From the NCBI GenBank assembly GCA_017608345.1, contig JAFCGA010000002.1, positions 1 through 64,000 on the forward strand: a DNA stretch of 64,000 nt, read 5' to 3'. Below are positions 42,254 through 62,474 of the stretch, in pieces. How positions within the stretch are numbered: position 1 is the stretch's first letter; every line of letters begins with the position of its first letter. The DNA comes from Candidatus Pacearchaeota archaeon. GTDB lineage: Archaea; Nanobdellota; Nanobdellia; UBA10117; JAFCGA01. The notes under the pieces are model-generated. The model saw only the letters and a list, made by a program, of their open reading frames with translations. It was not told where the DNA came from and did no database searches. Made by a program: the position numbers and the translations under genes.

Positions 42254-42418
42254 AAGAGTATTCTCGCCAAGTAGCCATTTTCTTTTCCAGACAGGAACTA
42301 GTTCCTGTTGGCCAAGAGAATCTGCGATTCTCTCTGGCTTTGCGAAAGAAAAGAAACTAGGCATCTAAAGAAAAGAAAGCATATTGTTCGCTTCGCTCAA
42401 GAGTATTCTCGCCAAGTA
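42254..42418. mobile_element. Double-hairpin element E1 flanked by 20-bp direct repeats
   Basis: AAGAGTATTCTCGCCAAGTA at 42254-42273 and 42399-42418; double hairpin at 42287-42337. Confidence 0.65.
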
Positions 42419-42726
42419 TGTTTACACTTAGTGCATCTAAAAAATTCTGTCTCGGGCTCGTCAGATGCGCGAGTTTGCAAGGACCAATGGTAGGCTTTGC
42501 TGTTACCGCATTTTTCGCAAGGCTCTTCCAAGCTAATTGTCGCTAGAGTCTGTTCTTCACCTTCTGAAACTCCTTCACCCTTTTGCTCATTAAACATCTT
42601 CTCAGAAACTTTGATTCTGGCATGTTTCGTAGAGATTTTTTCATTACAGCGAGGGCATTTTACTACTTGCTTTCCATTCTCTGTTGCCGGTACAAGTATG
42701 CTCCCGCATTTATCACAAAAATTCAT
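42397..42726 (-). CDS. Transcription factor S (TFIIS/RPB9-like)
   Basis: MNFCDKCGSILVPA..KCPRC and C-terminal CEKCGNSKAYHWSLQTRASDEPETEFFRCTKCKHTWREYS. Confidence 0.95.
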   Translation of the reverse strand: MNFCDKCGSILVPATENGKQVVKCPRCNEKISTKHARIKVSEKMFNEQKGEGVSEGEEQTLATISLEEPCEKCGNSKAYHWSLQTRASDEPETEFFRCTKCKHTWREYS

Positions 42727-42805
42727 TCTGGCTCTTTCCGAGGAACGATTAATATTTAATACTTTCTAATTCAAACCCGCTAAAACTACTTTTTCTTTCT
42801 TGCAA

Positions 42806-42957
42806 CCAAGCGAACTCCGTTCGCGTGGCCAAGAGAAAGCTCGCTTTCTCTCTGGAGAAAGAAAATCTATGCTACCAAGCGGAATGAAATTCCGCGTGGC
42901 CAAGAGAAATCGAAGATTTCTCTCTGGAAAGAAAGAAGCATATTACTCACTGCGCTC
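42806..42957. repeat. Two tandem double-hairpin units (E2a, E2b) with AAGAAAGAAGCATATTACT..CGCTC tail
   Basis: CCAAGCGAACtccGTTCGCGTGGCCAAGAGAAAGCtcGCTTTCTCTCTGG and CCAAGCGGAATgaaATTCCGCGTGGCCAAGAGAAATCgaaGATTTCTCTCTGG. Confidence 0.8.
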
Positions 42958-52450: not shown

Positions 52451-52537
52451 TAGCCTTTTAGAAAACCAGAGAGAAATCTTCGATTTCTCTTGGCCAAGCG
52501 GAATGTTATTCCGCTCTGGAGGCTAGCGAAAAGAAGA
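52451..52537. repeat. Double-hairpin element E3 between convergent genes
   Basis: CCAGAGAGAAATCttcGATTTCTCTTGGCCAAGCGGAATgttATTCCGCTCTGG, flanked by CCTTTTAGAAAA and GGCTAGCGAAAAGAAGATA. Confidence 0.8.
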
Positions 52538-62249: not shown

Positions 62250-62474
62250 TAGCGCGGGTTAGATTTGAACTAACGACCTACGGGTCTCTCTAGCCTTTAT
62301 TTCGGAGCGAAAGTAAAGTAAAATGCTTCTCTTTCTTTCCCCAGGGTTTCTTTCTCTTCGCAAGAGAAAGAAAGGCTGTATGAGCCCGTCGGGCACCTTC
62401 TGCAACCAAAGCTGAGCTATCTTCTTTTCGCCAACCTTTTTTTAAAAGGTTGTTCCAGACTGCCCCACCGCGCT
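62250..62474 (-). tRNA. Initiator tRNA-Met (CAT) interrupted by two introns
   Basis: Spliced reading AGCGCGGTGGGGCAGTCTGGAAGGTGCCCGACGGGCTCATAACCCGTAGGTCGTTAGTTCAAATCTAACCCGCGCTA; A1:U72 and GGG:CCC anticodon stem; intron at 37/38 = 62286-62378; second intron in D-loop about 62400-62452. Confidence 0.88.

Follow-up and report, generated by a model that had tools for sequence, protein, structure and literature searches.

A probable family of mobile double-hairpin palindromes in DPANN archaea, with copies in tRNA genes and in-frame insertions in conserved protein genes

To our knowledge, in-frame invasion of protein genes by selfish palindromes has been described mainly in Rickettsia and Wolbachia. 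The Rickettsia palindromic elements (RPE; WPE in Wolbachia) are short palindromes located in spacers and, in frame, in unrelated protein genes (PMC3767692; PMC10969869). Their hosts include tRNA synthetases and an epimerase, and the elements add a peptide to the host protein (PMC3767692; PMC10969869). Double-hairpin elements (DHE) of fungal mitochondria are paired hairpins similar in size to the element introduced here. They are described in PMC10085805, citing Paquin et al. 2000, as probably mobile and present in spacers and genes, and in the same paper as very GC-rich (above about 75%) and located in spacers and rRNA genes.

The archaeal element shares features with each of these systems. 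Like RPE, it is a dispersed palindrome that occurs in frame in protein genes, namely those of LeuRS, an epimerase, deoxyhypusine synthase (DHS), MetRS, a Dph2-like protein, and ribosomal protein uS3 (S3). However, RPE are 100-150 bp long and belong to Rickettsiales, whereas the archaeal element is 48-63 bp long (about 54 bp), and its strict pattern is seen only in DPANN, one chance-like bacterial match aside. It also differs from RPE in its two tandem hairpins with CCN/NGG ends, its precise A^A empty sites, its nesting in palindromes, and its presence in tRNA introns. With DHE as described there, it shares the arrangement of two adjacent stem-loops as one short mobile unit, here with empty sites. 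DHE are mitochondrial with a GC content above about 75%, whereas the archaeal element is chromosomal, has a GC content of 33-63%, and has copies in tRNA genes and in frame in ORFs. Host, size, and composition set the element apart from the descriptions of both, and it is not assigned to either family. Archaeal tRNA (BHB) introns that transpose are known from Thermoproteales and occupy unusual tRNA positions, including the T-loop. Insertions at such positions, the T-loop among them, are also found here, but the double hairpin is nested within the intron-like insert, occurs outside tRNA genes as well, and ends in CCN/NGG instead of splice sites. REP/BIME sequences moved by RAYT (Y1) are likewise imperfect, often paired hairpins with no obvious target duplication, but the archaeal element has no GTAG/CGTC tag, its main carriers have no Y1, and it inserts into ORFs and tRNA genes (REP definition in PMC3733652). 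A search of largely open-access literature for palindromic elements of DPANN genomes or of protein genes in archaea gave no description of the element.

Four copies are present in the window, the whole stretch of 64,000 nucleotides that was analysed (Table 1). The source genome (G000) comprises 1,046,156 bp in 15 contigs. The element consists of two tandem imperfect hairpins, CCN-AG-stem-CT-NGG, twice over. Each hairpin can be written as NNN-AG-stem-loop-stem'-CT-NNN, with an unpaired or mismatched base close to either outer end. In the window units, CCN-stem1-NGG abuts CCN-stem2-NGG, the stems pair perfectly over 6-9 bp, and a bulged base is located on the outer side of either hairpin (CCA-G-AG..CT-TGG, then CCA-AG..CT-C-TGG). 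Both AT-rich and GC-rich stems occur. The unit is almost identical to its reverse complement, and the covariance model matches it on both strands. All four units lie where the preliminary description had placed them. The interval 42806-42957, which it had flagged, does contain repeat units, but as two separate units plus flank. The opposite hairpin order that it had assigned to unit 4 is in fact the same element on the minus strand, which looked reversed owing to the near-self-complementarity of the unit. The strict pattern found nine copies in the source genome versus none for a reversed-pattern control, and covariance model R1 matched about 25 distinct places (best E 4e-16). The genome-wide search proposed earlier has thus yielded further copies, in the source genome and in related MAGs alike.

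Table 1. Double-hairpin units and associated features in the window
Feature	Position	Strand	Remarks
Unit 1	42287..42337	+	hairpins 42287-42311 and 42312-42337; CM 67.4 bits
Unit 2	42806..42855	+	hairpins 42806-42828 and 42829-42855; CM 56.7 bits
Unit 3	42875..42927	+	hairpins 42875-42899 and 42900-42927; CM 65 bits
Unit 4	52466..52519	-	CM 71.9 bits; between convergent HD-domain gene and PTH2
Unit 1 host palindrome, 5' part	42279..42286	+	TTTCTTTT^CTTTGCGAAAGAAAAGAAA, 12-bp arms after excision
Unit 1 host palindrome, 3' part	42338..42356	+	
Unit 2 host palindrome, 5' part	42791..42805	+	TTTTCTTTCTTGCAA^AGAAAGAAAA, 11-bp arms
Unit 2 host palindrome, 3' part	42856..42865	+	
Unit 4 host palindrome, one part	52451..52465	-	TAGCCT^TTTTCTAAAAGGCTA on minus strand, 9-bp arms
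Unit 4 host palindrome, other part	52520..52525	-	
20-bp direct repeat, left copy	42254..42273	+	AAGAGTATTCTCGCCAAGTA; brackets 125-bp composite insert carrying unit 1
20-bp direct repeat, right copy	42399..42418	+	overlaps 3' end of TFIIS/TFS-like ORF 42397-42726 (-), Pfam

Among relatives, the covariance model found about 24 copies in G007, 13 in G002, and fewer in G005, G010, G012, and G014-G018. A class-wide draw gave matches at E <= 1e-5 in 10 of 144 genomes, three of them outside the order. When the strict pattern was applied to one genome per species of 85,488 GTDB species, only MAGs of DPANN (Woesearchaeota/Nanoarchaeota) and one bacterial sequence matched. The bacterial match (L154) lacks palindromic arms and was treated as a chance hit. 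The viral contigs, phages, and plasmids that were searched gave no match.

Insertion of the unit is precise: the inserted DNA starts with CCN, ends with NGG, and lies between identical A (or T) bases, and the target is neither duplicated nor shortened. Three precise empty/filled pairs were found between sister genomes, with inserts of 54, 61, and 114 bp, and each insert has exact CCN..NGG ends and an A on either side. The 54-bp unit lies in an epimerase gene of G016 and is missing in G007 (site between gataa and aaaatag). The 61-bp unit (G007:C28:3003-3063; site between ggaa and aacc) and the 114-bp unit in leuS of G007 are both missing in G016. The latter is a double hairpin with a second double hairpin nested in a loop. 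None of the three empty sites has the fixed-length target site duplication that marks a transposase-borne MITE. The letters flanking the unit are identical in 51 of 62 clean copies, against 28.5 expected, at a symmetric A^A/T^T target.

The unit often inserts into an existing palindrome, including one of its own kind. When the exact unit is cut out, a perfect host palindrome with arms of at least 10 bp is restored in 14 of the 62 copies. Controls gave 0.9 such copies for mismatched flanks and 6-9 for a single boundary shifted by one base. In the window, the restored arms are 12, 11, 6, and 9 bp at units 1 to 4, respectively. The outer arms were also considered as part of a T-shaped three-way junction. 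This was rejected, and the outer stem is better read as an interrupted host palindrome, because exact excision restores palindromes, the junction position varies, and sister genomes have empty sites.

The two sides of each stem change together, and the four window units have different yet still complementary stems. In the nine strict copies of the source genome, 16 cells carry two-sided changes and no cell a one-sided change. An alignment of 119 matches, which includes many copies on both strands, has 350 two-sided versus 12 one-sided stem changes. The observed covariation was reached by none of 500 shuffles of this alignment, and it collapsed in slid controls. The compensatory changes reported in the preliminary description are thus borne out. 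Direct counting of arm pairs gave 718 A-T and 447 G-C (about 1,165 Watson-Crick), 2 G.T, and 4 A.C. RNA under selection is expected to tolerate G-U more than A-C. Since G.T is as rare as A.C, the palindrome appears to be kept as DNA, not as RNA.

These counts bear on the possibility that the unit is a structured RNA whose outer stem and hairpins 1 and 2 meet in a junction of three or four arms, maintained because the transcript is under selection. It could be, for example, an archaeal tRNA intron or BHB-spliced module with additional copies between genes. Such an RNA would account for the covarying stems, for the joint variation of the outer complementary arms, and for the four source-genome copies that lie in tRNA genes within intron-like inserts. 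It would, however, be expected to covary through G-U intermediates and to show strand asymmetry, whereas G.T is no commoner than A.C and the unit matches on both strands. In addition, the junction falls at varying places within the outer palindrome, the unit is cleanly missing in sister genomes, and many copies are located in ORFs and spacers. A search of Rfam gave no match in the window. We consider a structured RNA unlikely. The earlier proposal of selection on, or palindrome-preserving spread of, a folded element is supported in its second part: precise empty sites, nested insertion, and patchy copies speak for spread, and the rarity of G.T, the equivalence of the strands, and the in-frame ORF copies speak against selection on a folded RNA.

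Copies occupy spacers and tRNA genes, and in relatives they also interrupt conserved protein genes without breaking the frame. When the inserted region is excised in the source genome, ARAGORN restores tRNA-Asn(GTT), tRNA-Gly(TCC), and tRNA-Glu(CTC), whereas none of eight control sites matched. A tRNA-Ala(GGC) gene at C1:91041 is restored once three insertions are removed, although the boundaries were scanned and other anticodons also appear among the many joins. The junctions resemble archaeal intron positions in the T-loop (between GTTCAAA and ATC), and the inserts are presumably spliced out. About 5-45 nt of the tRNA insertion separate the CCN..NGG unit from the insertion's edge, so that the unit's ends are not the exon-intron junctions, as those of a BHB intron would be. 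The tRNA genes of the lineage look unusually intron-rich. In the tRNA-Ala(GGC) gene of C1 (L057, 1464-1814), the three insertions are in the D-loop, anticodon, and T-loop, and a tRNA-Ile-like neighbour of tRNA-Asn at C2:97059 also seems to have D-loop and anticodon insertions.

LeuRS, the epimerase, DHS, MetRS, the Dph2-like protein, uS3, and a tyrosine recombinase were identified by Pfam and PDB as hosts of in-frame copies. In G007, LeuRS holds two in-frame copies, SufS one near its start, and a short CARDB protein one. In-frame copies are also present in MetRS and the Dph2-like protein of G129, uS3 of G017, and a tyrosine recombinase of G018. The insert in DHS of G005 corresponds exactly to an 18-residue gap in the PDB alignment, and in the G016 epimerase the PDB match ends before the insert and resumes after it. 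Peptides from many ORF copies have a common pattern (GPRK..FSR). Outside the source genome, the length is a multiple of 3 in 32 of 38 units, a bias not shared by single hairpins, with a p-value (1.4e-10) that overstates the evidence because the copies are related to one another. In the source genome, 11 of 24 units have such a length, the bias is not significant, and no in-frame copy was confirmed inside any ORF. On average, 4.7 of the 6 frames are open per unit (62 units) versus 3.4 in palindrome-preserving shuffles.

Archaea splice BHB introns, and the same element sits inside tRNA introns. The ORF copies could thus be mRNA introns that are cut out by the archaeal splicing endonuclease and leave the protein sequence unaffected. 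We find this improbable, as the ORF copies are stop-free, have lengths in multiples of 3, and in many cases have a common peptide and frame, none of which splicing needs.

The preliminary description pointed to a REP-type or Y1/HUH route, in which the palindromes would resemble REP/BIME and be moved by a Y1 HUH transposase (RAYT or IS200/IS605). Paired imperfect hairpins, insertion without target duplication, and spread without a gene of its own are all features that the element has in common with such palindromes. In a profile search, however, Y1_Tnp (PF01797) was absent from G000, G002, G007, G010, G014, and G016, which are 68-88% complete; as most carriers are incomplete MAGs, absence of an enzyme is not proof. 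The sole carrier with Y1 among the relatives searched is G018, which has one weak element match. None of 62 copies has the GTAG/CGTC tag within 8 nt outside either end, the A^A/T^T target is symmetric and not a one-sided tetranucleotide, and copies are inserted in ORFs, whereas REPs are extragenic. This route has little probability. Other candidate enzymes do not track the element either. Among 18 genomes of the order, reverse transcriptase is found in G007 only, with matches at C17:4699-5310 and C26:5949-6566. Serine recombinase is missing from the main carriers, save one sub-threshold match in G010, and Xer-type tyrosine recombinases are present in nearly all genomes, carriers or not. Intrinsic terminators, or replication or cruciform regulatory signals with conserved positions, would fit the stable hairpins and the location of unit 4 between convergent genes, but are highly improbable, as copy positions differ between sister genomes, copies lie within tRNAs and ORFs, and a T-run is not required.

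The units are very probably copies of a short DNA element that is mobile but non-autonomous and consists of two imperfect hairpins in tandem. The best reading is a new archaeal family of mobile double-hairpin palindromes that works like RPE and the fungal mitochondrial DHE. Movement would occur via a folded single strand (or cruciform), with the enzyme supplied in trans. This putative enzyme would recognise the paired hairpins with their bulges and join them at A^A/T^T. Stem identity may be upheld at the DNA level, by copying or by hairpin-templated correction, while the arms diverge jointly between copies. Tolerance by the host probably explains how the element persists in a compact genome: the tRNA copies would be removed with the larger intron-like insertions that contain them, and the ORF copies, being stop-free multiples of 3, would only add a short peptide (often ..GPRK..FSR..). 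More tentatively, and with somewhat less than even confidence, we suggest a new class of archaeal mobile element, which moves as a folded single strand, is read by a putative enzyme through its paired bulged hairpins, and is joined without a scar at A^A. Through frame preservation, it may have given essential proteins (DHS, ribosomal protein S3, and tRNA synthetases) additional peptides, and it may also have enlarged tRNA introns across one DPANN class. A separate family in tiny-genome archaea would suggest that the in-frame palindrome lifestyle arose more than once, and the element may help to explain how certain unusual tRNA introns of archaea, and additional loops of essential proteins, originated. 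Because empty and filled versions of a site can be compared precisely across sister species, both the choice of target and the mechanism are open to direct tests.

Some copies are part of larger arrangements. The perfect 20-bp repeat around unit 1 looks as if the end of the TFIIS/TFS-like gene had been duplicated on arrival of the 125-bp insert. Direct repeats of 11-30 bp surround other copies (e.g., 30 bp at G000:C14:33705), and in infB of G007 a 119-bp duplication flanks a copy. These long repeats were considered as target duplications of the unit and rejected; they belong to separate, larger events, because the clean empty sites have no duplication. Given such composite inserts with flanking repeats, other insertion or duplication processes also act. 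Four copies of G000 (C2:42287, C4:54156, C10:44014, and C1:38685) have in common a longer composite that includes a motif similar to CTAGGCRTCYAAA, followed usually by GCATATT and often by a GC-rich quasi-palindrome, which may be a larger repeat itself. An upstream motif close to GAAAGCCACGAARTTGKTTACTTTCCTCGTGTYTC is common to three others (C2:135198, C5:29667, and C11:23212). The window also contains a free palindrome with 12-bp arms, TTTCTTTCTCTTCGCAAGAGAAAGAAA (62347-62373), which resembles the host palindromes and is unoccupied.
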